Of a DNA stretch of 64,000 bases, positions 12,734 to 34,765 are shown one piece after another. The DNA lies in assembly GCF_016734905.1 (NCBI RefSeq), contig NZ_JAERPO010000004.1, forward strand, positions 1 through 64,000, given 5' to 3'. The DNA comes from Sphingopyxis jiangsuensis (GTDB lineage: Bacteria; Pseudomonadota; Alphaproteobacteria; Sphingomonadales; Sphingomonadaceae). A model generated the notes under the pieces. That model saw only the letters and a program-made list of their open reading frames with translations, ran no database searches and had not been told where the DNA came from. The number at the start of each line of letters is the position of its first letter. The stretch's first letter is position 1. A program made the position numbers and the translations under genes.

Positions 12734-13468
12734 ATGCCGACGATCGACGCCGCGCATGATTTCGCGCTCGACGTCTCTCGCGTGAAGAACATGGAGGGTC
12801 TTGCAGACCTGCTGCAGGAAGCCTGTTCGCGAATGGGCTGCTCCTGGTTTGCGCTCAGTCATCATATCGATTTCCTGGCGACGCCGGACCGGGGTATCCG
12901 GGTTCACAACTATCCTGAAGAGTGGGAGCATTGGTTCGACGAACAAAGGCTCGGCGCCACCGATCCCGTCCACCGCGAAAGCCAGCGCAAGATGGCCGGC
13001 TTTCTTTGGCACGACATGAAAACCGAGCGACCCGAGGATGAAATCATCCTGGCGGAGGCGCGGCGACATGGCATCGGCGATGGGCTTACCGTCCCCGCCC
13101 ACCTTCCAGGACACGCGCATGGCTCGGTGTCCTTTGCTTGGAAACCCGGCGCCTTTGCGAGCGCTGACGCGCTGCAATTCGCCCGGATGATCGGCGGACC
13201 AGCCTTCGACGCAGCGCGTCTGATAGCCTATCCAGATCTGGCGCGTGTCGGGCCGCGGCTCACGCGCCGGCAGCGCGAGGTGCTGATCTGGGCGGCAAAA
13301 GGCGAAACCGTCCGGAGGATCGGCCTCAGGCTTGGTCTCAGTCCAGACACGGTGCGCGAGCATCTGCGAAACGCCCGGCAGCGTTATGAGGCGAATGGCG
13401 GCATCACGCTCACGGTGCGGGCGCTTTACGATGGCGACATCAGCTTCGAGGACATCGCCAAGCGCTGA
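12734..13468 (+). CDS. luxR: LuxR-family quorum-sensing regulator
   Basis: 244 residues: an N-terminal autoinducer-binding domain (about 20-160) and a C-terminal LuxR helix-turn-helix (about 175-235). In the ligand domain YPEEWEHWF and GATDPVH match the conserved Tyr/Trp/Asp-Pro positions that hold acyl-homoserine lactones. The DNA-binding part reads LTRRQREVLIWAAKGET...LGLSPDTVREHL. luxI follows 91 bases downstream on the same strand. No clear ribosome site is seen before the start chosen; an internal ATG at 12,791 is the alternative. The ligand cannot be read from sequence. The position next to a lasso locus suggests it controls that cargo. Confidence 0.9.
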   Translation: MPTIDAAHDFALDVSRVKNMEGLADLLQEACSRMGCSWFALSHHIDFLATPDRGIRVHNYPEEWEHWFDEQRLGATDPVHRESQRKMAGFLWHDMKTERPEDEIILAEARRHGIGDGLTVPAHLPGHAHGSVSFAWKPGAFASADALQFARMIGGPAFDAARLIAYPDLARVGPRLTRRQREVLIWAAKGETVRRIGLRLGLSPDTVREHLRNARQRYEANGGITLTVRALYDGDISFEDIAKR

Positions 13469-13558
13469 GAAAAATCACTCGCACCCCCCTATCGTGCTAT
13501 GGCGGGAGGGCAAATAATCCTTCAATTGGAACGCCTCTTTTCAAACGGAGGCTTATCC

Positions 13559-14173
13559 ATGTTGCTTATTGTCGATTCCACCAACCGGGCGCTCGAGCAC
13601 AAGGCGATGCGCACGATGTTCGAGGCGCGCAAGCGCGTCTTCATCGATCTGCTGAAATGGGACCTGCCGGCACTCGCCGGACGGTTCGAACTCGACCAGT
13701 TCGACGATGAGGATGCGAATTATCTCATCGTCACCGATGAAGGCGGCGAGCATCTCGCGTCGGCCCGGCTTCTGCTGACGACGCGGCCGGCGCTGCTCGA
13801 CAGCCTGTTTCCGGGCCTCGTCGACGGCGAGGTGCCGCACGGCGCCGATGTCCTCGAAATCACGCGTTTCTGCCTGTCGCCCGGGATCGGTGCGCGCCAG
13901 CGGCGCATCGCGCGCGACGCGCTTCTTGTCGGGCTTGCCGAATTCGCTCTCGCGAACGGCATCCGCACCTACACCGGCGTCGCCGAACTCGCCTGGTTCC
14001 GCCAGATCCAGACCTTCGGCTGGGATTGCCGCGCGCTCGGCGAGCCCGTCCTTCACGCCAGCCAGGCGCTCGTTGCGCTTCGCATCGATATCGACGGATC
14101 GACCGTCGATAAGCTCGCGGGTGCAGGCATCGTCAGCAATGCCGCCGCGGCCCCCGCTGCGTTCGCTGCTTGA
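13559..14173 (+). CDS. luxI: Acyl-homoserine-lactone synthase
   Basis: 204 residues. All landmark LuxI residues are visible: R24, F28 and W34 in the N-terminal helix region, D46 and D49/50, R70, F84, and E100/R103 in EITRF. The enzyme makes an acyl-homoserine lactone from S-adenosylmethionine and an acyl carrier. ACGGAGG is well placed before the ATG. The C-terminal Ala-rich tail is of unknown use. The pair with luxR gives a complete circuit. The 91-base gap before it contains C-rich and G-rich runs and a CTATCG/CTATGG repeat that might hold the LuxR site, but no convincing lux-box dyad. Confidence 0.92.
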   Translation: MLLIVDSTNRALEHKAMRTMFEARKRVFIDLLKWDLPALAGRFELDQFDDEDANYLIVTDEGGEHLASARLLLTTRPALLDSLFPGLVDGEVPHGADVLEITRFCLSPGIGARQRRIARDALLVGLAEFALANGIRTYTGVAELAWFRQIQTFGWDCRALGEPVLHASQALVALRIDIDGSTVDKLAGAGIVSNAAAAPAAFAA

Positions 14174-14183
14174 GGAGGGCGTC

Positions 14184-15107
14184 ATGATCATCAATCAGGC
14201 TTCTCTCGATGCGGCGCTTCCACGGTCAGCCGCCAGCCACGAAATGATGGCGCAGGGCTATACGATCCTGCGTCGTGCGGCCCCGGCGGAGCTTATCGCC
14301 GCCATCTCGGAGGATCTCGGCCCGCGTTTCGAAGCCACGCCCTTCTGCGAGGGCGGTTTCTACGGCGCACGCACCAAACGCTTCGGCCGACTGCTCATCC
14401 GGTCGCCGCTGATGGCGGACCTCGTCATGAACCCGGCGATCCTCGGTCTCGCCGAACGGGCGCTGGGCAATTGGTGCGACCGCATCCAGCTCAACCTCGC
14501 GCAGGCGATCGAGCTCCACCCTGGCGCGCTTGCGCAGCTACCCCACCGCGACCAGGATCTCTGGCAGGGCGCGCTTGGCGAGGTCGAATATCTGATCAAC
14601 GTCATGTGGCCTCTGACGCGCTTCACCGAGGAGAATGGGGCGACGATCATCTGGCCGCACAGCCATGGCGTCGAAGCGCTCGTCGAACAGCCCAGGGAAG
14701 CGCCGATCGTCGCCGAGGCCCAGCCCGGCGACGCCATCGTCTTTCTCGGTTCGACGCTTCACGGTGCCGGCGAGAACCGAAGCGCCAGTGTCCGGCGCGG
14801 GATCATCGTCAGCTACTGCCTCGGCTGGCTCAAGCCCTACGAGAACCAGTGGCTCGCTTATCCCCCCGAGATCGCGCGGACCTTCCTGCCGGAAGTCTCC
14901 GCGCTCGCCGGGTATGCGCAGCATCGGCCCAATCTCGGTAACTTCGAAGGGCAATGTCCGTCGATACTGTTCGACGGCTATCCCGACCATCCGCTTGCGG
15001 CGGTCGATGCACTGCGCCCCGACCAGCAATTGTTGCTTGCCGACTATGTGATCGCGCAGCAGCCGGGAGGGGAGGGCCAGCGTAGGCGCGGGCCGCTCGC
15101 GGCATGA
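14184..15107 (+). CDS. Phytanoyl-CoA dioxygenase (PhyH) family oxygenase
   Basis: 307 residues, a non-haem Fe(II)/2-oxoglutarate dioxygenase. The facial triad is visible as H121-x-D123 (LPHRDQD) and H193 (STLHGAG), with an Arg at 204-205 for 2-oxoglutarate. The start has a strong GAGGAGG and sits ten bases after luxI, while its stop overlaps the gntR start, so it belongs to a luxI-phyH-gntR operon. The substrate is unknown: candidates are the acyl chain or lactone of the signal, or side chains of the lasso peptide. I recall luxI-phyH neighbours in other sphingomonads, which favours a quorum-sensing role, but cannot check this here. Confidence 0.85.
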   Translation: MIINQASLDAALPRSAASHEMMAQGYTILRRAAPAELIAAISEDLGPRFEATPFCEGGFYGARTKRFGRLLIRSPLMADLVMNPAILGLAERALGNWCDRIQLNLAQAIELHPGALAQLPHRDQDLWQGALGEVEYLINVMWPLTRFTEENGATIIWPHSHGVEALVEQPREAPIVAEAQPGDAIVFLGSTLHGAGENRSASVRRGIIVSYCLGWLKPYENQWLAYPPEIARTFLPEVSALAGYAQHRPNLGNFEGQCPSILFDGYPDHPLAAVDALRPDQQLLLADYVIAQQPGGEGQRRRGPLAA

Positions 15108-15727
15108 GCCCCGGCGCCACGATGGAGCGGGTCTATCTGGATCTGAAGGCGCGTATCCTGTCGGGTGCTTATCCGCCGGGCACCCGGCTCGAGGCGGTGC
15201 AGCTCTCGCGGTCGCTCGCCGCGAGCGCTACGCCCGTCCGCGATGCGCTGTATCGTCTCTCGGGCGAGCGGATCATCGAGAGCTGGCATCAGGAGGGGTT
15301 CCGGCAGCCATTTCTCAGCGAGGCCGATCTGGTCGATCTCTATGGCTGGGCCGGCGCATTGCTCTCGATGGCCTTGAAGGGAAGGTTGCCGCGGCCCGAT
15401 TTGCCCGGCGGGCTGATCGAGCTCGCGTCGTACGACTCATATCCCGAGTCGATCGAACACCTCTTCAGAACCATCGCAATCGGCAGCCCGAATGGCGAAC
15501 TTCGCGCCGCGATCGTCAATGTTGTCGAGCGAAGCATGACAATTCGTGGGATCGAGGCTCGCGTCGATGAGTCCGCCGCCGATGCGCTGGCCGCGATGTC
15601 GGAGGATTATCGCTTCGGGCGCTGGAGCGCTTTGCGCAGCAAAATCACACGCTTCCACCGCCGGCGGGCCACCTTCGCAGGTCGTGTCGCGGCCGAGATC
15701 CGCAAGCGGTCGGAGCCGCTTCGATAA
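15104..15727 (+). CDS. GntR-family transcription regulator
   Basis: 207 residues. The first 70 form a GntR winged helix (ILSGAYPPGTRLEAVQLSRSLAASATPVRDALYRL), followed by an all-helical domain that resembles a shortened FCD ligand domain. The ATG overlaps the phyH stop (ATGA), implying coupling. The lasso precursor starts 97 bases after its stop and two inverted repeats lie in between, so this protein is a likely direct regulator of the lasso genes. The ligand is unknown. A metal-binding FCD triad is not evident. Confidence 0.85.
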   Translation: MSPGATMERVYLDLKARILSGAYPPGTRLEAVQLSRSLAASATPVRDALYRLSGERIIESWHQEGFRQPFLSEADLVDLYGWAGALLSMALKGRLPRPDLPGGLIELASYDSYPESIEHLFRTIAIGSPNGELRAAIVNVVERSMTIRGIEARVDESAADALAAMSEDYRFGRWSALRSKITRFHRRRATFAGRVAAEIRKRSEPLR

Positions 15728-15765: not shown

Positions 15766-15824
15766 GCGGTGAGCCTTAGCTTTCGAGGTGCCGCAATTCC
15801 GCGGCATATTGGAAGGAAGCGATC

Positions 15825-15947
15825 ATGGACCGCGAAACCAATGAACTGATCGAGCTCGGCAGCGTCAGCGCCGACACCGCCGGCGACTTCGGTATCGGCA
15901 CCGAAGCCAATGGCAAGGTCAAGCTCCCCGGCCTCAGCATCGACTGA
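15825..15947 (+). CDS. Lasso peptide precursor A1 (40 aa)
   Basis: A short gene with a GGAAGGAAG ribosome site. The leader fits the lasso pattern LxxxGxxxxxTxG: Leu8, Gly12 and the key Thr18 at position -2, with the core starting at Gly20. The predicted core begins GDFGIGTE, so Gly1 can be linked to Glu8 in an 8-residue macrolactam ring, leaving a 13-residue tail ending in SID. The leader is only 19 residues and lacks the Tyr and Pro often seen at -17 and -14. It lies directly before a second precursor and the B and C enzymes. Function of the mature peptide is unknown. Confidence 0.88.
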   Translation: MDRETNELIELGSVSADTAGDFGIGTEANGKVKLPGLSID

Positions 15948-15954
15948 CCCGGGC

Positions 15955-15983
15955 GCCGGGGGCCAGCGCGCCTGGTCCCCGGC
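15955..15983 (+). terminator. Stem-loop between the two precursor genes
   Basis: GCCGGGG pairs with CCCCGGC, then after a G/T mismatch CCAG pairs with CTGG around a 5-base loop. It lacks a T-run, so it more likely protects the A1 message or attenuates read-through into A2 and the enzyme genes than fully terminates. Such hairpins after precursor genes help make more precursor than enzyme. Confidence 0.5.
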
Positions 15984-16019
15984 AGGCCGCTCTCCATGAT
16001 CCCAATCGAGGAAGTGAAG

Positions 16020-16142
16020 ATGGAACGCGAACCCAATGACCTCGTCGAGCTCGGCACCGTCACCGCGGACACCGCGGGCGACTGGGGCCCTCCGTTCGAG
16101 CCCGCCGGCCGCATGCCGCGCGCTGCGATCGAGCAGGACTGA
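16020..16142 (+). CDS. Lasso peptide precursor A2 (40 aa)
   Basis: A second precursor of exactly the same length. The leader is nearly identical to that of A1 (LVELGTVTADTAG against LIELGSVSADTAG), with Thr18 at -2. The core begins GDWGPPFE, again giving a Gly1-Glu8 ring, here with two prolines and aromatic Trp3 and Phe7, and has a 13-residue tail with two arginines (after GR and PR). Shared leaders with diverged cores indicate duplication and diversification, both products being processed by the same B and C proteins. Confidence 0.88.
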   Translation: MEREPNDLVELGTVTADTAGDWGPPFEPAGRMPRAAIEQD

Positions 16143-16194
16143 GCAGGCGTCGGGAGCGGCCTGGCGGTCGCTCCCGATCCTGCCGCTATTGTGG

Positions 16195-16848
16195 ATGGGC
16201 TGGCGACTGGCACATGGGACGGGCTATTGCGAAGCGGGCGGCGAACTCGTATTCCTCGACTTGGCTCGCGACAAATATCTCTCGCTGCGTGGCCGCGATC
16301 GCGCCGCGTTCGAGCGGCTTCGTGCCGGCGAGCCGAACGACAGCGACGCTATGACGCGGCTTGTCGCGACGGGCCTCTTTGCGCGTTGCGACGGCGGGCA
16401 TGACGTCGCGCCCACGCGCGTCTTGGTGCCGTTCCGCGACCTGGCCTCGCACCACGATGCCCCCTTTGGCGTCGGCATGGCAATTCAGGCGGCCCGCGCG
16501 CTCGGCTGGGCGAAACGCGCTATGCGATCCGCACAGATAGCGAGCACCGTCGAACGCCTACGGACAGCCAAGCGCGAACTCGCCGTTCCCGGTGACGAGG
16601 ACGCGATCGTGGCGATCGCTCGGCGCTATTCTGCTTGCCGCTGGCTCATTCCGATCGAGCCCCGGTGTCTCGTCGACGCGCTTGCGCTCGACCGGATCTT
16701 GCTCAAGCGGCGTCTCGCCGTGTCGCTCGTCTTCGGCGTGCGCCTCGATCCGTTCGCGGCGCATTGCTGGCTGCAGACCCCCGAAACCATCCTCACCGGT
16801 ACGTTGGCCGAGGCCCGGAACTACACGCCCATCCTGGTGGTCGCATGA
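16195..16848 (+). CDS. Lasso peptide B protein: leader-binding domain fused to Cys protease
   Basis: 217 residues. The first 70 resemble a PqqD-like precursor-recognition domain (GGELVFLDLARDKYLSL), which binds the leader peptide. The rest is the transglutaminase-like protease that cuts after the leader, with the probable nucleophile C158 (PRCLVDALALDRIL) and H190 (FAAHCWLQT); the third acidic residue is not obvious to me. A single fused B protein is typical for proteobacterial lasso loci. The ATG at 16,195 has no evident ribosome site, so the true start may differ slightly. Its stop overlaps the start of the cyclase gene. Confidence 0.9.
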   Translation: MGWRLAHGTGYCEAGGELVFLDLARDKYLSLRGRDRAAFERLRAGEPNDSDAMTRLVATGLFARCDGGHDVAPTRVLVPFRDLASHHDAPFGVGMAIQAARALGWAKRAMRSAQIASTVERLRTAKRELAVPGDEDAIVAIARRYSACRWLIPIEPRCLVDALALDRILLKRRLAVSLVFGVRLDPFAAHCWLQTPETILTGTLAEARNYTPILVVA

Positions 16849-18593
16849 CGCGGGGCGTGATCGCCTTCGTCAGCTGCGAGGGCAGCGCGGACCATTTCGA
16901 GGCCATCGCGGCTGTCCACGGACTTCGCCGGATCGCGTCACCTCCTGGCCTATTCCTCTTCGCGGGCCCGAAGTTGTCAGATCGCCTGATGGCGGATGGC
17001 TCGGTGCTCCTGGGCGAGGTCTTCTCGCTCTCGGGGGCGAGCTGTCACGCGCCTTCAGACGGCTGGGGCAACTATCTCGCCTTCGCGAGGCGGGAAGGTC
17101 GCTGGCTGATCGATCGTGCTCCGTTGACGGGCGCTCCGCTCTATTGGACCCGTTGGCGGGGCGGAATATTGTGCGCTTCGCACCTCGAGTTGATCGCCGA
17201 TCTGCTGGAATCGCCGACCGTAGACTGGGAGTTCATCGCCCAGGCCCTTATATACAGCAATCTTCGGACCGAGCGCACCGGCCTCACTGGCCTGTCGGAG
17301 CTTCTGCCGGGAATGCGGCTCGCGATTGACGATGCTTCGGCAAAGACGATCCCGCTCTGGTCACCATGGGAGCATGTCGGGAAGGCAATTAATGCGGGAA
17401 TAGCCGAGCTAGCTCCCGAGCTGGAGCGGCGACTGGTCGCTTCGGTGCGCGCGTGGAGCGGCACGCGCAAGGAGATCATGCTCGAGCTTTCGGGCGGGCT
17501 CGACTCGTCGATCGTCGCGGCCGCCTTGTCGGCCGCGGGTTCCGACTTCACCGCGATCAATTTTGTTACGCGCGGCGCGGATGGCGACGAGCGTCATTAT
17601 GCGCGCGCGGTAGCAAGCCGGTGCGGTATCGAACTGATCGAGAGCGAGATCGATCCGGCTGATGTCGATCTCGTTGCCCGGCCCTCGGTAATCGGGGCCA
17701 GGCCTGGAGCCTATGCCGTGCTTCGCGGCATTGACCGCGCATTCGAGCGCGGGGTCGGTGGCCGCGAGGTGTCGTTGTTCGGCGGCATCGGTGGCGACAA
17801 TATCTTCTGTTTCGACGGTTCGGTGTCGCCATTCCTCGACGCCGCTGCGACTTTCGGGATGGGACGCCGTGCCTTCCGGACGCTCCGCGACGTGGCGCGC
17901 GGTGGCGGAGCGACCCTTTGGGGTGCGGCACTGCTTGCGTGGAAGGCGTGGCGACGAGGTCCACGCGATCATTGGCGGAGCGAACCGGAATTCCTGAGCC
18001 CCGACGCCATTCCTGCTGCGCCCTTCGCACATCCGTGGGACGAGGGGGCACGAGGCCAGAGTCAGGCGAAGCGCAACCATGTCGAGGCGGTGCGGCGAAT
18101 TCTCGATTTCGTCGACCGACCGCCGCGCTGGGCGGCGCGCGACGTGGTCGCGCCGCTTCTGTCGCAGCCCGTGGTCGAATATTGCCTCTCCATTCCCAGC
18201 TGGACCTGGATCGAGGGCGGGCGGGACCGCGCGGTCGCGCGCGCCGCCTTCGCCCATCGCCTGCCGCCCGAGGTCGTCTGGCGTCGCGGCAAGGGACGGC
18301 TCGAGTCGGTCGCCACTGCCGCCTATCTTCGCCAGCGCGCCGAGCTCGCTGAACTGCTGCTCGGCGGACGCCTTGCCGAGCATGGCCTGCTCGACCTCGA
18401 CGCGATCCGGGCTTATCTCGTGCGCGATCTCGCCGACGGCGACTTTCTCTATTACCGGCTGCTCGAAATCGCCGACGTCGAACTCTGGGTGCGGTCGGTC
18501 GAGGAACTCTTCGCCTCGCGGCCGAGCTTCGACCAGCGATCATATTGCGGTGACTTGGCTGGATCGGGGTCGACCTCGTCCTTGAGCCAGTAG
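16845..18593 (+). CDS. Lasso peptide C protein: asparagine-synthetase-like macrolactam synthetase
   Basis: 582 residues. The ATP-binding PP-loop SGGLDSS at residues 216-222 activates the Glu8 side chain as an adenylate so that Gly1 can close the ring. The N-terminal 200 residues keep the shape of the glutamine amidotransferase domain, but the sequence begins MTRG, without the nucleophilic Cys2, as expected for a cyclase that needs no ammonia. A 4-base ATGA overlap couples it to the B gene. Its last 142 bases overlap the 3' end of the convergent isopeptidase gene. Confidence 0.92.
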   Translation: MTRGVIAFVSCEGSADHFEAIAAVHGLRRIASPPGLFLFAGPKLSDRLMADGSVLLGEVFSLSGASCHAPSDGWGNYLAFARREGRWLIDRAPLTGAPLYWTRWRGGILCASHLELIADLLESPTVDWEFIAQALIYSNLRTERTGLTGLSELLPGMRLAIDDASAKTIPLWSPWEHVGKAINAGIAELAPELERRLVASVRAWSGTRKEIMLELSGGLDSSIVAAALSAAGSDFTAINFVTRGADGDERHYARAVASRCGIELIESEIDPADVDLVARPSVIGARPGAYAVLRGIDRAFERGVGGREVSLFGGIGGDNIFCFDGSVSPFLDAAATFGMGRRAFRTLRDVARGGGATLWGAALLAWKAWRRGPRDHWRSEPEFLSPDAIPAAPFAHPWDEGARGQSQAKRNHVEAVRRILDFVDRPPRWAARDVVAPLLSQPVVEYCLSIPSWTWIEGGRDRAVARAAFAHRLPPEVVWRRGKGRLESVATAAYLRQRAELAELLLGGRLAEHGLLDLDAIRAYLVRDLADGDFLYYRLLEIADVELWVRSVEELFASRPSFDQRSYCGDLAGSGSTSSLSQ

Positions 18594-20431
18594 AGGAACC
18601 AGTCGAGGTTACGCTCATAGACCGCGAGCTTCTGACGAGGCTCGAACTTAATATGGGGGGCGAGCGGGTAAATGTGCAGCTCACCCATGCGGGCCGTCGC
18701 GAGCTTGCTCTGCAACTCGATGGTCTGCCTCGCCTCGCTCTCGGGCAGCTGCAGAAGAATCGGAGCCCGGATGCGCGCGATGTCGGCCGACGGGGACAGG
18801 CGGCGCCACCCGGCCGGGTCGGCGTCGGGCGACCCGAGCTTCCAGTAGCGCTGCACATTATCGACGAACATCGACCGGCTCGGCCGCTCGTTGAACCAGT
18901 AATAGCTCGGCTCGAGGCTAACCGAGGCGCTCGCGGCGGCCCTGAGCAGATTGCTGTGAGTCGCGGTCCACATCGTAACTTCGCTTCCGAAGCTTAGACC
19001 GCCCATGCCGACGCGACTAGGATCGACGATCCCTTGGCGCGCCAGATGGTCGATCGCGGCCTCCACGACCTGGCGGCCGAGCTTGTAACCTGCTTCCGCG
19101 GTCATCTCTCCCGGGAGCCGGTTGATGCAAAGCGTCGCAATTCCGCGCGCTGCCATGGCACGCAGGGGATATTCATCGCCCAACCCCCCACGCACGAAGC
19201 CGGGGCACCGGTAGTAGGTCACGAAGAGCGGCAGCCGCCCGGGGATCTTCGGGCGAATCAAAACGCCCGACGCACGGCTGCCGCTCACCTGCCATGCGAT
19301 GGTTTCGGCAAGGAGCCCGTCGCTGTCAGGAAACTGGTTGGGAGTGTCGATGATGGTCTTGGCGCCATCAAGCCCGATCCGCACGAGGCGCGGCGGCGTC
19401 GAGGGGGTGGCTTCGACGCAGAATAGAGCATCGGGCGCCGCAGCGCAGGGGGAATCCTCGTCGCGGCTTCCCGAGAGCAGACCGTCGGTCGCGGCAAGAG
19501 GCGACAATTCCGCCGTGCCGGATGACCAGATGTAAAGAGTCTCGCGGAGCGCGCGATCTCGCAAGGTGACGATCGTCCGCCCGTCGGCGAGTGGCAGAGT
19601 CGAGGCAAGGCGCCGTGATCCCTCCGCGCAGCCGAGGATTTCGAAGCACACGCCGCTCGCCTGCAGCTTGGCCTTGAGCACTGCGGTCGGTCCGGCGGAT
19701 GCGCGAGGAAGCGGCGGGGGCAGTGCCCCCGCCTCGGCGGTGGAGGCGACGCGCGCCGACCCAGTAGCCATGTCATGGACGCGGATGATGCGGGGTTGGT
19801 CGGCGAGCAGCGGCGCGCGGTCGAACCAGTCGCCGGTGAAGCGCTGCGTCGCCGCACGGCCATTGACAAGCCCGCCGCGATAAAGCGGTGCGGACAGATC
19901 GACGCGCCCATCGACGAGAATACCGGTCTCCCGCTCTGCATCTTCCGCGCGCGCGATCGCCTCGCGAGAAGGGCCTTCCGCGGCGATGACGGTGCCGTCG
20001 GCCTGGATTGCGAAGCCCTCGATATCGCCGTCGCCCACGACGATCGGGACGAAGCCCGAGCCGTCCACCTCGCTTCGCCATAGCGCGACCCGCCCGTCGA
20101 CCAGCGCGCGGACGACGATGGCGCGGCTGTCCGGGGTCCAGGTCGCTTCGCCTGGCATGACGACCCCGACTTCATAGATCAGCGCGGTGCCGAGGCGTCC
20201 GAGCCCCCGCGGCTGGCCCTTGCCGTCAGCAGGCGCGATGTACCAGTCGACATCGATCCGGTTTGTAGCAGTTGAGGGTCGCTCGATACGGTAGGCGATC
20301 CATCGCCCGTCGGGGGAGGCGGCAAGACCCGAGATGTCGGCAATCTCGGCAATTTCGCGCGGGGTCGTCTGGCCGGCTGCGGCAGGTGCCGCAGCCAGCA
20401 TGGCGAGAAGAAGCGCGGTACGGCTTACCAC
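18452..20431 (-). CDS. Lasso peptide isopeptidase (prolyl-oligopeptidase fold)
   Basis: 659 residues with an N-terminal signal peptide (cleavage near AAAGQ), so it acts in the periplasm. An N-terminal beta-propeller region is followed by an alpha/beta hydrolase domain with nucleophile S480 in GLSFGSE, probable acid in the PESE segment near 564-566 and H593 in APHIKF. This matches the family of the astexin isopeptidase AtxE2, which hydrolyses the ring isopeptide bond of its own lasso peptide. The GTG start overlaps the stop of the TonB receptor gene by 7 bases. The C-terminal 40 residues after FLYWLKDEV are polar and read through the end of the cyclase gene. Confidence 0.9.
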   Translation of the reverse strand: MVSRTALLLAMLAAAPAAAGQTTPREIAEIADISGLAASPDGRWIAYRIERPSTATNRIDVDWYIAPADGKGQPRGLGRLGTALIYEVGVVMPGEATWTPDSRAIVVRALVDGRVALWRSEVDGSGFVPIVVGDGDIEGFAIQADGTVIAAEGPSREAIARAEDAERETGILVDGRVDLSAPLYRGGLVNGRAATQRFTGDWFDRAPLLADQPRIIRVHDMATGSARVASTAEAGALPPPLPRASAGPTAVLKAKLQASGVCFEILGCAEGSRRLASTLPLADGRTIVTLRDRALRETLYIWSSGTAELSPLAATDGLLSGSRDEDSPCAAAPDALFCVEATPSTPPRLVRIGLDGAKTIIDTPNQFPDSDGLLAETIAWQVSGSRASGVLIRPKIPGRLPLFVTYYRCPGFVRGGLGDEYPLRAMAARGIATLCINRLPGEMTAEAGYKLGRQVVEAAIDHLARQGIVDPSRVGMGGLSFGSEVTMWTATHSNLLRAAASASVSLEPSYYWFNERPSRSMFVDNVQRYWKLGSPDADPAGWRRLSPSADIARIRAPILLQLPESEARQTIELQSKLATARMGELHIYPLAPHIKFEPRQKLAVYERNLDWFLYWLKDEVDPDPAKSPQYDRWSKLGREAKSSSTDRTQSSTSAISSSR

Positions 20432-23370
20432 CGGATCGTCGCCTGGATCGAGGCGGTCCGCCCATAGGGGTTGGCCTTCTCAGGATCATAGCCGAGCGCT
20501 GAAGTGCTGCTCCGCACTTCGACGAAGGGCGGATCTCGATCGAAGAGGTTCTGGACGCTGAACGCGAGGGTCAGCCCGCGACCGTCGGCCCCTCCCGTGC
20601 CGCCGATTTGCTGGGCAAGCGTCAGATCAACTGTGGTCCACGACGATACCCGGGCCGCCGGAATGACGGTCTGGTTCGTGTAGCCCTCGACATAATTGAC
20701 GAAGGCATTGGCCGAGAAGCCATCTTCCGACCATCCCGCCCGTCCGCGCAGCCGCCATTTGGCGGGGCTGGCGTAGAGCCCCACGACGTCGATGCTCGGC
20801 GCGCCCACGGTGAGCTGCCGCTTGATCGAGAAAATATGGGTTCCCGCGATCCCGAGATCGAGCATTCCGCTGCCGACTCGCGGAGCATAGCCGAGATCGA
20901 AATCGATCCCGCGCTGCCGTTCGGCTGACAGATTGCGCGTTCGTCCGTCGAGGATCGCGGCAATGTCGCCGGGCGCGAAGCCGAACGGATTGAAAAACAG
21001 CGGCGAGTTGAAATAGCCCTGCACGAGGTCGGGCGATGGGTTCTCGGTGACGACGCCCGCAAAGGCTTCGCGGTCGACAAGGAAGCGGAGATAGTCCTCG
21101 CTCGCGCTGCCGATCCGGTCGCGATAGTCGACATCATAATAGGTGAGCGATGCCTTCAGCCCCGGGACCGACGGCGGGGCGATGTCGAAGCCGGCGGTCC
21201 AGGTCTTTGCCCTCTCGGGCTGCACGTTCGGAGCATAGCCGAAAAGGCCGATGACATTAGCCACGCCCGAGGTTGTCGTCGGGTCGGGCACCTGCAACGT
21301 CGTATAGAAGGCGACCGTCTCGCCGATCAGCTCGGAGAAGAGCGGTGCGCGGAACGATGTGCCGTAGGATGCGCGCAGCGCAATGCCGTCCACCGGTTCC
21401 CACCGCACTCCGAGCTTGGGATTCTCGGTGCGCCCGAACTGGTTATAATCCTCGATCCGGCCCGCCAGCGTGAGATCGAGCTTCTGGAAGCCGGGAACGG
21501 CATTGTCGGCGCCGAAGATCGGCACCAGCAGCTCCGCATACACCGATTTGACGTGCCGGGGACCGGGCAGGCCGAAGAAGGGCGAGGCATCGGGCGTCAG
21601 GAAGCTGGCGTCGTTGATCGTGAAATAATCATAGGCCTCGCGTCGATATTCGGCGCCGACGGCAACGCGAACCTCGCCGCCAGGAAGACGCAACAGCGGG
21701 CCATCGGCGCGCAGCGCGGCCGACCAATTATCGAACGTGTCGATCGTCGCATAGCTGCCGCGAATGCTTTCGATCGACGCGGGATTATTGGCGCTGCCGT
21801 CGCCGAACACATTGAACGCTGTCGCGGGATTGGTGTCGGCGAGCGCCGCGCGAAGACGCGCGCTGTTCACGACATTGTCGAAGCTCGCGCGGCTCTTCTG
21901 GCGGCCATAATTGCCTCCGAGCTGGATGCGCCAGGCCCCGATTTCCTGCTCGAGCGCTGCCGACGCCGAAACCGCCCAGACACGGCCCCTGTTGATCTGC
22001 GGCCCAAGCTCGTTTGTGAAGCTATAGGCGACGGCAACGGGTTCGTTCGTCCCGATCGGATCGACGTAGAAGGGATTGGTCACCGGCACGGTGGCAGTGC
22101 GGAGGAAGTCGGTCTTGCCGATCTGCCGGTATCGGCGCTCCGCTGCGAGAATGTTGGTCCGCAGCGTCAGCGTGCCCGTGATGTCGACCGCGCCGCTGGC
22201 GTAGAGGCTATGGACGCGCTGACGGGGCAGGAGGTCGGCTTCGAGCCGGTTGTCGCGCCGGTTCTGGACGCCGGGGAGAAGGTCGGCCGCGGTAAGCGCG
22301 GTCCCGTTCTGGCCAGCCGGGATTCCGAAAATCTGTCCGTTCGCGGCCGTGATCGTCCCGGGGGCTGCAAAGAGTGACCGGTAATCCCCGCCACCGAAGG
22401 GGCGGAGGTCCTCGCGGGCATAGTCTCGCTTCGCGGCCGCGAGCGCGCCGCGTTCGGAATATTGATAGGCAATCATGAAATGACCGCCGTCCCAACCCTT
22501 GCCGAAGAGCTGGCTGAACTGGAGATCGGTCATGTCGCCGTCCGACGTGCCCGCCCGAAACAGCGTTTCGGCGCCCTCGAAGCGGTTGCGGAGCCGTAGG
22601 TTGACGACCCCGGCGACGGCATCGGCGCCATAGATGGCCGAGGCGCCGTCGGTGAGAACCTCGATCCGCTCGACCGCAGTGACTGGAATAAGCGAGATGT
22701 CTGCAAAGGCTCCGCCAAGTCCGCCGAGCGCCGGCCGGGTTCCGTCGATGAGAACGAGCGTCGACGAGGTTCCGAGGCCGCGCAGGTTGATGCCGCTACC
22801 GTAGGTCGCATCGGCGCCTGCGCCATTGCGCGTCGTCGCGCCGAGCGTCGTTTCGGTGACGCCGCCGCCGAATGCCTGCGGAAGCGACTGGAGCATCTGC
22901 TGAACCGTGCCGTAGCCGCTCTTCTCAATAGCTTTGCGATCGATGCTTATGACCGGAGACCCCACGGGCCCTGCACCGCGGATGCGAGAACCGGTGACTA
23001 CGATCGCATCGCGGCCGCTCGTTTCAGTCGATCCAGCCTCCGCGGCAACGTCGTTTCCCTCGCGGATGACAAGCGCGCCATCGACGAGTTCCGCTACGAG
23101 GCCGGTGCCGGAAAGGAGGCGCGACAGTGCGGCGTCGTCGCTATACCGGCCTTGGACGCGCGCGCTGCGCTTCCCCTGTACGATCGACGACGACGCGATC
23201 ACCTCGCGGCCGGACACCTGCGAATAGCGCTGCAATGCCGTGCCGAGATCCTGGGCAGCGATATCGTAGCTTTGCTGTACGGACTGGACCTGCGCATGTG
23301 CCGTGGGAACCTGAATCGCGATTGACGCGGTGCTCGCCGAGAGCATCGCCCCCAGAAACTTGTACTTCAT
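20425..23370 (-). CDS. TonB-dependent receptor with STN signalling domain
   Basis: 981 residues, outer membrane. After a signal peptide (ending near TAHAQ) comes an STN domain (YDIAAQDLGTALQRYSQVSG), which marks transducers that signal to FecR-type anti-sigma factors. Then follow a TonB box-like DAIVVTGSRI, a plug domain and a long barrel ending in an aromatic residue (TIRW). The ATG at 23,370 is preceded by GGGAGGT. It is coupled to the isopeptidase gene, so it most likely imports the lasso peptides from this locus, or related ones, and reports their presence to FecR/FecI. Confidence 0.92.
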   Translation of the reverse strand: MKYKFLGAMLSASTASIAIQVPTAHAQVQSVQQSYDIAAQDLGTALQRYSQVSGREVIASSSIVQGKRSARVQGRYSDDAALSRLLSGTGLVAELVDGALVIREGNDVAAEAGSTETSGRDAIVVTGSRIRGAGPVGSPVISIDRKAIEKSGYGTVQQMLQSLPQAFGGGVTETTLGATTRNGAGADATYGSGINLRGLGTSSTLVLIDGTRPALGGLGGAFADISLIPVTAVERIEVLTDGASAIYGADAVAGVVNLRLRNRFEGAETLFRAGTSDGDMTDLQFSQLFGKGWDGGHFMIAYQYSERGALAAAKRDYAREDLRPFGGGDYRSLFAAPGTITAANGQIFGIPAGQNGTALTAADLLPGVQNRRDNRLEADLLPRQRVHSLYASGAVDITGTLTLRTNILAAERRYRQIGKTDFLRTATVPVTNPFYVDPIGTNEPVAVAYSFTNELGPQINRGRVWAVSASAALEQEIGAWRIQLGGNYGRQKSRASFDNVVNSARLRAALADTNPATAFNVFGDGSANNPASIESIRGSYATIDTFDNWSAALRADGPLLRLPGGEVRVAVGAEYRREAYDYFTINDASFLTPDASPFFGLPGPRHVKSVYAELLVPIFGADNAVPGFQKLDLTLAGRIEDYNQFGRTENPKLGVRWEPVDGIALRASYGTSFRAPLFSELIGETVAFYTTLQVPDPTTTSGVANVIGLFGYAPNVQPERAKTWTAGFDIAPPSVPGLKASLTYYDVDYRDRIGSASEDYLRFLVDREAFAGVVTENPSPDLVQGYFNSPLFFNPFGFAPGDIAAILDGRTRNLSAERQRGIDFDLGYAPRVGSGMLDLGIAGTHIFSIKRQLTVGAPSIDVVGLYASPAKWRLRGRAGWSEDGFSANAFVNYVEGYTNQTVIPAARVSSWTTVDLTLAQQIGGTGGADGRGLTLAFSVQNLFDRDPPFVEVRSSTSALGYDPEKANPYGRTASIQATIRW

Positions 23371-23450
23371 CTTACCTCCCCAAGCGGCCTCCGATGGCCG
23401 TCTGGGGGTGCAAAACACCGGAAAGGGGATTCCCCCTTTTGCGATTGGGA

Positions 23451-24389
23451 TTATTTTTTGCTGAGGGTGATTGCGTCCGGACCTTCTTCGTCATCCAGCC
23501 CAAAAGCTGCGGCGAGCTTGCGAGCGAGGCTCGCGCTGTCGGCGACATCGAAGCGGCCCGTTACGGGGAGCGATCCCAGCGCAGGGTCTGCGAGGCGGAT
23601 CGGTTTGGCATTGGCCTTGTTGGCGGCATCGATGACGGCGCCGAGCGGGAGCGCGTCGGCCGCCAGCATCGTCGTCGGCTCACTCGTTTGCACGGGGCTT
23701 GCCATGGCCGGGAGGAGGCGAGGGCCGTCGTCCGACACTTCGGCTGTCTCTCCCGGCGCGAGGCGGAGCGCTTTGCTCGAACCGCCAAGCCGGACCTCGA
23801 CCGAACCGCGCACGAGCTTGACGGTGGGGACGCTCGATCTGGCGTCCACCTCGAAGATGGTCCCGAGCGCCTTTGTCTCCGAGACACCCGCGACGACAAT
23901 GAATGGCCTTGCACTATCGTGGGCGACATCGAACCGCGCGCGGCCGCCGTGCAGGCGGATACGCCGCTCGGTGTCGGAGAATTGCGGTTCCGCCCAGGCA
24001 CCATCCATTAGTGTCACGGTCGAGCCGTCGGCGAGGCGGAGCTGGCCGGGCAGCATGGGGCCTTCTGCAATCTGCGGCGTGTCGGCCTGTCGTCCCATTT
24101 GCCAGGTGAAAGCCACCGCTATGCCGATTGCGGCGATCGTCGCGACGGCCCAGCGGAAGCCCCCTGGTGCATTGCACTCTTTGTGCGCCCCGGCTTCGCT
24201 TCGCGCCATGGCTTCGATGCGGGTTCGAGAGGCGGCGCCTGACACCGCGAAATCATCCTCTGCCACGGCAAAGGCCTCGGCGTTGCCGGGCACCGCACAC
24301 CAGAGTTTGAAGGCTTCGCGGTCGGCTTCGGTCGGCGCACCGCGTAGCCGCACGGCCCATTCGGCCGCCTCGCGTTCGACAGATCTCAC
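23451..24389 (-). CDS. fecR: FecR-type anti-sigma factor
   Basis: 312 residues, GTG start overlapping the fecI stop by 4 bases. The N-terminal part has the cytoplasmic Trp-containing region that binds the sigma factor (EREAAEWAVRLRG and FKLWCAVPGN), one membrane segment near residues 80-95 (WAVATIAAIGIAVAF), and a periplasmic FecR domain (LADGSTVTLMDGAWAE through the GRARFDV region). It ends with a small STN-like part. It should relay the signal from the receptor STN domain to the sigma factor. Confidence 0.9.
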   Translation of the reverse strand: MRSVEREAAEWAVRLRGAPTEADREAFKLWCAVPGNAEAFAVAEDDFAVSGAASRTRIEAMARSEAGAHKECNAPGGFRWAVATIAAIGIAVAFTWQMGRQADTPQIAEGPMLPGQLRLADGSTVTLMDGAWAEPQFSDTERRIRLHGGRARFDVAHDSARPFIVVAGVSETKALGTIFEVDARSSVPTVKLVRGSVEVRLGGSSKALRLAPGETAEVSDDGPRLLPAMASPVQTSEPTTMLAADALPLGAVIDAANKANAKPIRLADPALGSLPVTGRFDVADSASLARKLAAAFGLDDEEGPDAITLSKK

Positions 24390-24967
24390 GAGTGCGTGTC
24401 TCGCGCCTTGCGGACAGCGATCAGGGCTTTGACGATATGTCTTTCCACGGCCTTCACATCCATCCCTTTGAGTCGTCCGATCTCTGGATAGCTGACATCG
24501 TCGAACCTGTGCATCAGGAATACATCCCGTGTGGTTGGATCTAGTTTCGCGATCGCATCCTCTACCCGGCGCAGCATGTCGCGATGCTCGAGCGTCGCAT
24601 GCGGGTCGGGCCCGGCGACTTCATGATCCTCGAAACTGTGATGGGCTTGGAGCTGGCCTCTTACCCCGGACCGCTTCCGGTTCTTCAGGATCGTGCGCGC
24701 TGCCGCGGCGAGATAGGCTCCGGGCGCATCGAGAAAGGCTGCGTGCACACCTTTCGCGGAGAAGAGCCGGCGAAACGTCTCCTGCACGAGGTCGCCGACA
24801 TCCTGCGGGTGAACATTGCGGCGAAAGATGCCCGCGATGCGCGCCTGGTGCGCGACATAGAGCGCTTCTTCGCGATCCGCACGGCCATATTCCGCCCAAT
24901 CGCCGGGAGGCAGGGGATCGCCTGCGGCGACGGCGCGCCGATCAGCCGGGTCATCGTCATAGTCCAT
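24386..24967 (-). CDS. fecI: FecI-type ECF sigma factor
   Basis: 193 residues with sigma region 2 (QDVGDLVQETFRRLF) and region 4 (LDPTTRDVFLMHRFDDVSYPEIGRLKGMDVKAVERH). The start at 24,967 is preferred because an upstream in-frame extension would run through the regulatory dyad. First gene of the fecI-fecR-tonB-isopeptidase operon, which it probably activates when the receptor is occupied. Confidence 0.9.
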   Translation of the reverse strand: MDYDDDPADRRAVAAGDPLPPGDWAEYGRADREEALYVAHQARIAGIFRRNVHPQDVGDLVQETFRRLFSAKGVHAAFLDAPGAYLAAAARTILKNRKRSGVRGQLQAHHSFEDHEVAGPDPHATLEHRDMLRRVEDAIAKLDPTTRDVFLMHRFDDVSYPEIGRLKGMDVKAVERHIVKALIAVRKARDTHS

Positions 24968-25020
24968 TCCACATCGCCTACCGGTCGGACCGAGGGGCAA
25001 TGAAGCCGGGAGGTAAGAAC

Positions 25021-25034
25021 ATATTCGGAAATAT
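25021..25034. promoter_or_regulatory. Palindrome with ATATTCGG upstream of fecI
   Basis: ATATT-CGGA-AATAT is a perfect inverted repeat 54 bases before the fecI start. It shares ATATTCGG with the palindrome before the lasso precursors and the dyad before luxR. It may be the operator that co-ordinates the two halves of the lasso locus. Confidence 0.5.
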
Positions 25035-25208
25035 GCGCCGCCGCCTTTAGCCCGAGGGCCTGGACATACGCGTCGGCCACCCGGCAACGGATGGGAATAT
25101 CACAAGGCTTTCCGAACGGAATTCTTACGTTCCGGCATCGCGCGCCTGCCAGCCCGATGCCCTCCAAGCATAGCCGGACGTAACGTCAGGGCAAGCCTGT
25201 GGTGCGAA

Positions 25209-29559: not shown

Positions 29560-30303
29560 CTATGAAAGCAGAAACGTCAGGTTCTTAATGACCTGGGCCT
29601 GGACTTGTTTCGGGTCGAGCCCCCGCAGCGTGGCGATAGCCGCTAGGACTTGCGTAACATCCCCCGGTCCAATTGACTCGCCGTCTCTTTCGACGAACGG
29701 ACCATCGGTTTCGGTCAATATACGGTCGTCCGGGATCTCTGCCAGCAGACGAGAACCGCGAGGCGATCTCAGCATCGCTTCGTTGACAGAGAAAAAGCAA
29801 CCCAAGTCTAGACCTCGGCGCACCTCGGCCAGGCTACCGGTGAACCAGTGAAGCACGACTCTTCCTTTATTGTTTGGAAGATTCGTCTCGATCAGATCAA
29901 GAACCTGCTTCGAGGCACGGACGCTATGAACGGTCAGCACCTTGTCCCCGGCTGCGGCGCAAAGCTGGAGCACTGATGTAAACACCCGGACTTGGGCTTC
30001 GAAAGAGCGATAGAAGCGGGGCCCGGCGTCCAGACCGACTTCACCCACATAGCGCGTTTCAGGAAGAAGCTTTCGGAAGAGATCGAGTTCATTCTCCCTC
30101 TCCCCAACGAGTTGAGGGTGAAGGCCTAACGCGACCCGGACGAAACTACTATTACGGGCCAACTCTTGGTTATGTGGGAAAGCGCGGGGTGTGGTGGTAA
30201 CCGCCAAGGTCGCCGTCCGGCGACGATCGCAAGCCTCGATGGCTACCGCGAGATTCGGATACAGGTCGAGATGACAGTGAAAGTCGACGAGCTCGGGTCG
30301 CAT
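29560..30303 (-). CDS. qatD: QatD: TatD-like metal-dependent nuclease
   Basis: 247 residues of the TatD family. Metal ligands are visible in FHCHLD, GEVGLD, VHSVR, LHWFTG and TETDGP. TatD proteins are metal-dependent DNases; in the Qat anti-phage system this is the fourth component. It starts five bases after the qatC stop, completing a qatABCD operon. A housekeeping TatD is unlikely given this strict context. Confidence 0.9.
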   Translation of the reverse strand: MRPELVDFHCHLDLYPNLAVAIEACDRRRTATLAVTTTPRAFPHNQELARNSSFVRVALGLHPQLVGERENELDLFRKLLPETRYVGEVGLDAGPRFYRSFEAQVRVFTSVLQLCAAAGDKVLTVHSVRASKQVLDLIETNLPNNKGRVVLHWFTGSLAEVRRGLDLGCFFSVNEAMLRSPRGSRLLAEIPDDRILTETDGPFVERDGESIGPGDVTQVLAAIATLRGLDPKQVQAQVIKNLTFLLS

Positions 30304-30308
30304 GGGCG

Positions 30309-31673
30309 CTAGTGCGGCTTGGTGACCACACCGTCAAGCAGTTTGCCTACCTCGATGACGCCCCGACGAAACACATCGGCATAGGCTGTTATCTCAGACG
30401 CTGAATCCCCTAAGGGGCCAGGCTTGTGTACGAGAATCGACGAGAGGGCAGGCGTGGCCACGATGCGTTTTGCCATAAGTTGGAAGGACCTCACATGTTC
30501 GCCTTCCTTTCGGTCCGAGAAAAGAGGCTGCGATTTGCTGACCGCCACCGCGTATTGCGTTGGATCCGGAATACCAAGTCCGGCGTCTAGCGAGGCGCGA
30601 CGAATGAGACAGGGCACGCAATATCCGCAATGCCGCGGCGACAGACCACGAAAACGGGCCTTCGCGGGGGATGAGCAGGACATCGAGTTTCCAGCCTCCT
30701 TCTGCAGGAACGGAAGGTCTGCGCAGTTCTCGACCATCTCACCTTTCGTGGCGTGGCGATATGGATTTACCAGAGTTCCCTCTATTTGGATGTCTTTGAG
30801 CAGCGCGTTCATACCCGCTATAAAATGTGGATGCGCGGTCCGCGTGCTCAGCGCGCCGAAGCGGAGCGGGTCGAGCGGGACATTAAGTGCGATCAGTCCG
30901 TTCTCGGGCACGTTGATCTTCGTGGGCCGTCCAAGCGCGGAGCCCGCGAGTGCGGCGAGGGCGAAGAAAAGGAAGGAACGGCCGCGCTGTGTGTTCTCTG
31001 TTTCACCCGTCCCCAGATCGTTGCTGTCGAACCCAAGGCGCACCCGAAGGTTTCGAATCTCGGGCCCAGGAAATCGTGTTTCGAGCCGGCTGAGAAGATA
31101 GGCCTGAGCCTTGGCCGTCTCGGAATCCCAGTAGTGACTGACGAGCAGGGGCCGCTTACCGCCCTTCAACAGATCAATTACACCGATCAGGCTATCTAGG
31201 CCGCCCGAAAAGAGGCAAACTTCATCGAGCGTGTCTAAGGGGAGCGTATTTACCGCTTTGACCAGAGACGCGTGAGTCTTCGGACGCGGACGAAAGAAAA
31301 AGCGCCAACGGTCACCCGTCAGGAAGCGCAGCAGCGCCGTCAACCGCTCCCCATGAGGGCGCCATAAGTCTGGCGCTGACACAGGTATGTAGAGGTCGAT
31401 TTCCCGCGTCCATCCGTCCTGTGCATTGGCGGCGCGAGAAACCCGTGTGTCACCCGCGTTCACAAGCGCGGCAATCAAAGTCAGGTCGACTGCCTTCTCG
31501 CTGGGTGTCAGGCCGAGGGTGCCAAGCTGAGCGAGCGCGTGACCAATCCCAAATCCAAGGGTTCCGTCCTGACCTGCGAAGTTTACTTCGTGGACTACCG
31601 AATCCTTTTGGACAATTTCGACGATCTCCTCGACGGAGCCGCCAAGCATCGCAACAAAGCTGAACCGCTTCAT
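30309..31673 (-). CDS. qatC: QatC: QueC-like ATP-dependent enzyme
   Basis: 454 residues. A PP-loop ATP-binding motif (FSGGLDSLIG) and a C-terminal zinc site (CGYCVPCLIRR) are those of 7-cyano-7-deazaguanine synthases, but the chain is twice the usual QueC length with an extra N-terminal 150-residue domain, as in Qat systems. The start at 31,673 overlaps the qatB stop by four bases. In Qat it presumably modifies a protein or base during phage response; the chemistry is not settled to my knowledge. Confidence 0.9.
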   Translation of the reverse strand: MKRFSFVAMLGGSVEEIVEIVQKDSVVHEVNFAGQDGTLGFGIGHALAQLGTLGLTPSEKAVDLTLIAALVNAGDTRVSRAANAQDGWTREIDLYIPVSAPDLWRPHGERLTALLRFLTGDRWRFFFRPRPKTHASLVKAVNTLPLDTLDEVCLFSGGLDSLIGVIDLLKGGKRPLLVSHYWDSETAKAQAYLLSRLETRFPGPEIRNLRVRLGFDSNDLGTGETENTQRGRSFLFFALAALAGSALGRPTKINVPENGLIALNVPLDPLRFGALSTRTAHPHFIAGMNALLKDIQIEGTLVNPYRHATKGEMVENCADLPFLQKEAGNSMSCSSPAKARFRGLSPRHCGYCVPCLIRRASLDAGLGIPDPTQYAVAVSKSQPLFSDRKEGEHVRSFQLMAKRIVATPALSSILVHKPGPLGDSASEITAYADVFRRGVIEVGKLLDGVVTKPH

Positions 31674-32536
31674 TGCGCTTCGCCCAGCGTCTGCATCAGG
31701 TCGAACGCGGCGACGTACAGGTCCGACACGAATCCTTCGATCTGTCCTGAAGTGATGTCCGCAAGACTTGTTCCGGTCGTATCGAAGCGGTCGCGGACAC
31801 ACCCGTCCACGAAGTCGTGAAGCATGCGCTGGGTCCTCTCTACCGCCGCGACGCTCGCCGCGACGCGGATGCTGTTCGTCCCCACCTCGTTCAGTATTTT
31901 GCCCTCGATGGAACGGGAAACGACTCCGATGAAAAATTCTTGAAGATCGCTCTGGGTCATGTCGTCGAAGTTGCCAACGCCCTCCGCCGCGAGGGCAGCG
32001 ACGGTCTCGAGCATCGCGTCACGGGCGATCGCTTCATCAATCGTCCCGCCAGGTGGACAAAGGGCATCGGTCAGAGCGACGAATACGTCCACGGCCGGGG
32101 CGCCGGCCAGCGCCTCTAGGTTGAACGTGCGGAGCGCCTCGACCGGACCATCGACTAGGAAGCTGCGGGCGAAGTTGGCAATTCCCCCTGCCGTCGCCCG
32201 CGAACTCGACATCTGGCGCGCGGCTCCTCCGCCTCCGCCCGACGCTGACACATATTTGCTGGCGCCCCGCCGGACCGATCTTGAGTCGGAATTCCTCGCG
32301 CCGCGGGTGATATCGCCCCGGGCGTCGCCCAAGCCGGAGCCCACCCCCGGCGACCGAATTGGCGGGTATGCACGAGGTGCATCCGCGACAGGTGATTTTC
32401 CATCATCGCCGTCGGACGGCGCGCCATCGGTTCCGTTGGGATCAGTGGCAGGCGGAGATGCCGAGGGCGTGGGATCTCCGACCCAGCTCGGAACAAGACT
32501 ATGTTTCGATCCACCGAACGTACCGGAGGTGCCCAT
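31670..32536 (-). CDS. qatB: QatB
   Basis: 288 residues. The N-terminus MGTSGTFGGSK followed by about 100 disordered Ser/Pro/Gly-rich residues and a helical C-terminal domain is typical for QatB, the component of unknown function. It starts in a TGATG overlap with the qatA stop and ends in overlap with qatC, so all four proteins are made from one message. No catalytic motif is visible. Confidence 0.85.
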   Translation of the reverse strand: MGTSGTFGGSKHSLVPSWVGDPTPSASPPATDPNGTDGAPSDGDDGKSPVADAPRAYPPIRSPGVGSGLGDARGDITRGARNSDSRSVRRGASKYVSASGGGGGAARQMSSSRATAGGIANFARSFLVDGPVEALRTFNLEALAGAPAVDVFVALTDALCPPGGTIDEAIARDAMLETVAALAAEGVGNFDDMTQSDLQEFFIGVVSRSIEGKILNEVGTNSIRVAASVAAVERTQRMLHDFVDGCVRDRFDTTGTSLADITSGQIEGFVSDLYVAAFDLMQTLGEAQ

Positions 32537-34470: not shown

Positions 34471-34765
34471 TGCTAGTCTTCGCCCCCAATGGATCGCCAT
34501 GTAGCACGCATTCGAAAGCGCCCCAACGCCTTCTTCAAATGGAAAGTCCAATCTGGTTCATTCTTAGAAGACCAAATAGGATGTTGCTCGCTTCAGGCAT
34601 TTGAACCGCTGCAACAGCTGTCGTAACCGGCTGCCCCGGACCACCCGTTGACGGAACGTAGCAGGGAAAACGCGCTTCGATGAGGGGCCTTCGCGACTTA
34701 AACGCTGAACGAAAAGGCGCGGAATTACCCAGAGTAGTCGAAGCATATCGAGACGGATTGTTGCG
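34471..34765. other. Gap upstream of qatA
   Basis: About 295 bases without a convincing gene. It should contain the promoter of the Qat operon (reading leftward) and the 3' end of the adjacent two-gene unit. I see no clear terminator. Confidence 0.4.

Follow-up and report, generated by a model that had tools for sequence, protein, structure and literature searches.

A tandem pair of lasso-peptide precursors directly downstream of a luxR-luxI cassette in Sphingopyxis jiangsuensis

Lasso-peptide clusters with several precursors per B/C pair are well documented and include those of astexin-2/-3, caulosegnins I-III, the caulonodins and xanthomonins I-II (PMC7549694). The role of isopeptidase-type lasso peptides has been called enigmatic (PMC9266682), and a transposon mutant of Sphingomonas BPH showed that sphingocin, which derives from a different precursor than those described here, is needed for phenanthrene use (PMC11006600). 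Acyl-homoserine lactone (AHL) genes have been seen near such clusters or in similar arrangements. For example, a 'hserlactone, lassopeptide' hybrid region matching Citromicrobium was listed by antiSMASH in Qipengyuania pacifica (PMC9318849), and Novosphingobium has the gene order novR-novI-phyH, once with a gntR-like gene next (PMC3704786, PMC5012321). A survey of luxR-linked biosynthetic gene clusters took luxR/luxI inside a cluster as evidence of quorum-sensing control, and its main text mentions neither lasso clusters nor sphingomonads (PMC5872303). No statement of a general lasso-luxI link was found in the literature covered, which included few subscription papers.

The locus described here lies in a window of 64,000 nt, the whole stretch of DNA analysed, from Sphingopyxis jiangsuensis (GCF_016734905.1, NZ_JAERPO010000004.1, positions 1 to 64,000, forward strand). 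It is headed by two precursor genes:

15825..15947, plus strand, lasso precursor A1, leader MDRETNELIELGSVSADTA, core GDFGIGTEANGKVKLPGLSID, matching NF033522 and PF24178
16020..16142, plus strand, lasso precursor A2, leader MEREPNDLVELGTVTADTA, core GDWGPPFEPAGRMPRAAIEQD, matching NF033522 and PF24178

Inspection of both open reading frames bears out most of a preliminary description of this DNA: each has 40 codons, Thr at -2, Gly1 and Glu8, and the cores divide into the rings GDFGIGTE (A1) and GDWGPPFE (A2) plus 13-residue tails, ANGKVKLPGLSID and PAGRMPRAAIEQD, respectively. A second in-frame ATG lies 24 nt upstream of the 40-codon start of A2; the 40-codon start is preceded by AGGAAG and agrees with the start in A2 homologues. 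The cores differ as claimed (6/21 amino acids and 44% of nucleotides identical between A1 and A2), and the leaders are similar, although at 13/19 amino acids and 84% of nucleotides they fall short of the near-identity ascribed to them. A1 matches NF033522 (benenodin family, NCBIfam) above the curated cut-off of 33 bits (E = 9e-10, 38.3 bits) and A2 matches below it (1.6e-6, 27.9 bits); with Pfam Subterisin (PF24178), A1 (6.5e-7) is likewise above and A2 (5.7e-5) below the cut-off. A chance origin of A1 and A2 is excluded by these matches. Apart from A1 and A2, no frame in the 64 kb carries LG-x5-T-x-G-x(5-7)-[DE] near its stop, and an NF033522 search of the whole genome returned no other match. 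At the sequence level, A1 and A2 are thus confirmed as real lasso-peptide precursors of the ordinary type, and a threaded Gly1-Glu8 macrolactam is predicted for both.

Two features had been singled out as odd. The leader does lack Tyr-17 and Pro-14 (A1 has Arg and Asn there), and the Tyr-17/Pro-14 motif is a feature of other lasso groups. However, YxxP occurs in 0/37 related precursors, so an unusual leader was rejected and the missing residues are, across the sequences compared, the rule for this clade. The ring prolines and tryptophan, described as uncommon, are common within the A2 class, with Pro at ring position 6 in 9/13 A2 orthologues and Trp3 in 4/13, and this candidate oddity was also rejected. 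The ring of a single-precursor sister clade is GDFGPPVE or GNFGPPVE. The preliminary description mentioned neither the luxRI linkage nor the hairpins, and left out the half of the cluster that comprises the isopeptidase and TonB genes.

Genes for processing, ring opening and uptake follow the precursors:

16195..16848, plus strand, B, transglutaminase-like leader peptidase (NF033537 4e-20; PF13471 7e-18)
16845..18593, plus strand, C, Asn-synthase-like macrolactam cyclase (PF00733 6e-28), with an ATGA overlap with B
18452..20431, minus strand, E, AtxE2-family lasso isopeptidase (NF033523 500 bits; AtxE2 5txc 1e-36)
20425..23418, minus strand, TonB-dependent receptor with an N-terminal STN signalling domain (PF00593, PF07715, PF07660)
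23451..24389, minus strand, FecR-type anti-sigma regulator (PF04773 1.5e-14)
24386..25087, minus strand, FecI-type ECF sigma factor (PF08281 6e-13), true start probably internal

The isopeptidase score is well above the NF033523 cut-off of 400 bits; C gives partial matches to lasso cyclase models, under their cut-offs. RRE family models did not match the N-terminal half of B, which is presumed to be an RRE. No transporter gene, ABC or other, was noted between 12.7 and 25.1 kb. With precursor, C, E and the GntR/TonB/FecI/FecR genes of an isopeptidase-type proteobacterial lasso cluster all present, the gene content is that of a complete cluster of this type headed by A1 and A2; published examples have the same composition, with gntR before the precursor (PMC9266682). 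Gene order and family models, together with the fact that 20 congeners retain the pair, support the proposed sharing of one B/C pair by two precursors, and both peptides would be processed by this single set. The convergent 3' ends of C and E share 142 bp (18452-18593), an overlap also found in related loci; mutual antisense effects between cyclase and isopeptidase are conceivable. Elsewhere, locus L110 (G418:C1:1008900-1021400) is a tandem of two isopeptidase-type lasso clusters; in the downstream member of this series, listed second, C is reduced to an 83-aa remnant beside an intact-looking isopeptidase.

In the rest of the window, a tyrosine integrase gene (248-1612) comes after a tRNA-Gln(ttg) (48-122), with ParB-like, strawberry-notch helicase and Toprim primase genes next; together they resemble one terminus of an integrative element. 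Contig C1 (L155) has a further copy of the 3' part of the tRNA-Gln where no intact tRNA is present, which may be an att site. Qat anti-phage defence genes lie at 30309-34551 on the minus strand (QatA 6e-270, QatB 5e-87, QatC 2e-175; PADLOC), and an adjoining 247-aa open reading frame (29560-30303, minus strand) could be QatD.

The A1/A2 tandem, spaced by about 195 bp, is present in 20/80 Sphingopyxis genomes (the window genome included; G421 has it twice), and the search for core relatives that had been called for did recover them, including 13 distinct A1/A2 pairs. G1, E8, G11, D-3, T-2 and A-1 are invariant across these pairs. A1 cores mostly have G6 and K12; A2 cores have G4 and R12, mostly P6 and mostly M13. 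Core identity in the 13 pairs is 52% for A1-A1, 60% for A2-A2 and 43% for A1-A2 at the same locus. A clean A1/A2 split was not obtained on a tree of the precursor protein, which is too short and offers few columns; the classes are defined by diagnostic residues and by where each gene lies. The pair is an old duplication kept in Sphingopyxis with distinct core classes. Concerted evolution of leaders inside a locus is not supported, as same-locus identity is no higher than identity between loci (P = 0.21). Plasmid copies of the lasso cluster were looked for and none were found. Contig C12 of G421 carries two oppositely oriented copies of the A1/A2 cluster (L114, L115), separated by about 108 kb and with identical precursors. 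In G446, the A2 homologue MNNETNDLVELGCVSTDAAGEHGLPMEMGGREDWAGLTQD (L120:4094-4213, approximate) has Ala in place of Thr at -2; it either is decaying or puts the Thr-2 rule to the test in nature.

A stable GC-rich hairpin lies 3' of both precursor genes in 13/13 pair loci:

15955..15983, plus strand, RNA hairpin 3' of A1, folding in 13/13 pair loci
16149..16178, plus strand, RNA hairpin 3' of A2, with compensatory changes in 7/10 pairs

The A1 hairpin varies little among these loci. Both are without a T-run and therefore look stabilising or attenuating rather than full terminators; in astexin-1 constructs, a hairpin downstream of A was removed for better expression (PMC7549694). The hairpins bear on whether A1 or A2 alone is processed, its partner being a decaying duplicate. 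That A2 scores under both family cut-offs, that Ala replaces Thr-2 in the G446 homologue and that several related clusters have a single precursor would all fit such decay. However, both classes have kept Thr-2, G1, E8, G11 and length in 13 distinct pairs, each gene retains its own hairpin, and in G427, the closest relative, the A2 core shares 19/21 residues with that of the window compared with 12/21 for A1. We regard processing of one precursor alone as improbable, and favour two products.

A quorum-sensing cassette, luxR-luxI-phyH-gntR, lies directly upstream of A1/A2:

12734..13468, plus strand, luxR-type regulator, Autoind_bind plus GerE (Pfam PF03472 4e-25, PF00196 3e-10)
13480..13502, plus strand, luxR-luxI intergenic block CACCCCCCTATCGTGCTATGG, candidate lux-box/promoter, common to most type-1 loci
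13559..14173, plus strand, luxI, AHL synthase (PF00765 1.6e-22)
14181..15107, plus strand, phyH, Fe(II)/2-oxoglutarate dioxygenase (PF05721 7e-21)
15104..15727, plus strand, gntR regulator (PF00392 2e-13), standard in isopeptidase-type lasso clusters (PMC9266682)
15723..15764, plus strand, conserved candidate promoter/operator block of A1, GATAATATTCGGAGAATAT..CGTATAAAATTCCTATACG, aligned in 26 loci
15789..15806, plus strand, 5'UTR inverted repeat TGCCGC-AATTCC-GCGGCA before the A1 start, in most loci

The luxR gene, encoding an AHL-binding domain and HTH, adjoins luxI, as in a LuxR/LuxI circuit. This luxI is related to the solved AHL synthases 6wns and 3p2f and is the sole luxI match of the genome (E <= 1e-5). 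The block CACCCCCCTATCGTGCTATGG, divergent in L131/L132, was not seen upstream of A1 on inspection by eye; direct LuxR control of A1 is thus unsupported, and read-through is assumed. The A1 block covaries in sequence with GntR (r = 0.85; partial r = 0.83 given C; Mantel P = 0.0005), tracking this protein far better than C, B or LuxI. Because gntR adjoins the block, co-inheritance could explain part of the covariation, which is weaker evidence of binding for that reason.

These arrangements suggest a scheme that we consider likely, namely that two lasso peptides are made in a density-gated manner, sensed again through the TonB receptor and opened by the isopeptidase. LuxI would make an AHL, and LuxR-AHL would activate luxI; read-through via phyH-gntR would raise A1-A2-B-C, with a second promoter immediately before A1 under GntR control. 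The hairpins after A1 and A2 could raise the abundance or stability of the precursor messages relative to those of B-C. B may bind both leaders through their shared EL-G-x-V-x-x-D-T-A segment and cut after the Thr-Ala end of the leader, and C would close the ring between Gly1 and Glu8, so that two lassos of 21 residues form, each with an 8-residue ring. After export, the peptides would be taken back up through the TonB receptor; its STN domain could signal through FecR to the sigma factor, and the isopeptidase would then open the lasso ring.

Linkage to luxI extends well beyond the window. All 37 type-1 loci examined have luxI and gntR directly upstream of the lasso genes and in the same orientation, and phyH is present in 35/37; the exceptions, L128 and L129, have luxI and gntR and divergent precursors, GEEGRPIEGAGLLPVTGISD and GDNGRPIEGAGLLPVTGISD. 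Across the family, 134/198 (~68%) benenodin-type precursor loci are within 20 kb of luxI (86/124 in the genus, 48/74 in other genera), counting distances on broken contigs as unlinked and including loci of shared ancestry, which are not independent events. The linked loci include 53 in the genus and 26 in other genera with luxI <=3.5 kb upstream on the same strand. Random placement would give ~1-2% by our own estimate, from ~1.6 luxI per 4.2-Mb genome. A type-2 layout, luxR-luxI-phyH-gntR-fecI-fecR-tonB-E facing C-B-A, is found at L135, L136, L138 and L149, and L148 resembles it without a gntR match. The L136 core, GIEPLGPVDEDQGEHYLFAGGITADD, is presumably that of sphingopyxin I, and the L136 isopeptidase is near-identical to PDB 5jrk. 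That structure is the sphingopyxin I isopeptidase according to the reference list of PMC9266682.

At L139-L142, L144-L147, L150 and L154, luxI is followed by phyH, with no B, C or E within the few kb fetched. Because phyH accompanies luxI at these loci without lasso genes found nearby, and also in the Novosphingobium loci (PMC3704786, PMC5012321), we assign it to the AHL module. Hydroxylation by an Fe/2-oxoglutarate enzyme has been described for a lasso precursor (PMC9266682), and phyH sits between luxI and the lasso genes, so that PhyH might be a tailoring oxygenase comparable to CanE of canucin; yet lasso loci L128/L129 do without phyH, and with both lines of evidence against it a tailoring role seems doubtful.

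The same loci bear on a further possibility, in which the lasso cluster works as proposed above and luxR-luxI-phyH is a mere island neighbour, GntR and FecI alone setting production. About one-third of precursor loci are apart from luxI, and the window has an integrase at tRNA-Gln, as hitchhiking would predict. It would account less readily for a linkage of ~68% against ~1-2% expected, in many genera, for two layouts that place the cassette at different ends of the cluster, or for an order luxI-phyH-gntR-A that is preserved despite divergence to 30-50% identity. We therefore see hitchhiking as possible, at less than even chances, and retain density-gated production as the preferred reading.

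AHL appears not to be required in general, because ~1/3 of loci have no luxI inside 20 kb, and a luxI search of the single non-sphingomonad isopeptidase genome found (n = 1) gave no match; control genomes gave none either. The class-level isopeptidase survey sampled luxI linkage sparsely beyond sphingomonads. One precursor match, on contig C21 of G398, which we take to be a possible counterpart of sphingocin in S. bauzanensis, had no luxI found on that contig. A broader statement is offered tentatively and may well be too wide: that sphingomonad isopeptidase-type lassos are typically the output of an AHL circuit, and that Sphingopyxis uses a non-redundant A1/A2 pair with one enzyme set, receptor and isopeptidase for density-gated release and recapture.

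Because the pair lies directly downstream of the sole luxI, and about two-thirds of related clusters are alike, the role of these peptides becomes testable as a response to population density. A general physical link between lasso and AHL genes offers a cheap, concrete test of that role and may reveal how to activate silent sphingomonad clusters; the retained pair allows two peptides that share a receptor and an isopeptidase to be compared in a natural setting. What makes the locus interesting is its AHL-signalling linkage and the long retention of two core classes, the arrangement of two products from one set being already known.

Compared with described systems, the locus shares with the benenodin/subterisin family (NF033522, PF24178) its leader type, Thr-2, Gly1, Asp/Glu ring residue, B and C enzymes, and isopeptidase and TonB neighbours, and differs in its new cores and in an A2 that falls under both curated cut-offs. 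Novosphingobium nov loci share the luxR-luxI-phyH order, in papers silent on neighbouring lasso genes (PMC3704786, PMC5012321). The Qipengyuania/Citromicrobium region also has lasso B2, cyclase, AtxE2-type isopeptidase and AHL synthase genes, presented as a predicted hybrid type without proposing a signal-peptide link (PMC9318849). The sphingopyxin I cluster (isopeptidase 5jrk/5jrl) has the same enzyme set, and a near-copy of it (L136, L138) also carries luxR-luxI-phyH-gntR; unlike at the present locus, its cassette lies on the FecI side (type 2), its precursors are not in tandem and its core is unrelated. As in the astexin-2/-3, caulosegnin, caulonodin and xanthomonin clusters, multiple precursors are served by one B/C set, whereas A1 and A2 form two diagnosable classes across many species of one genus.
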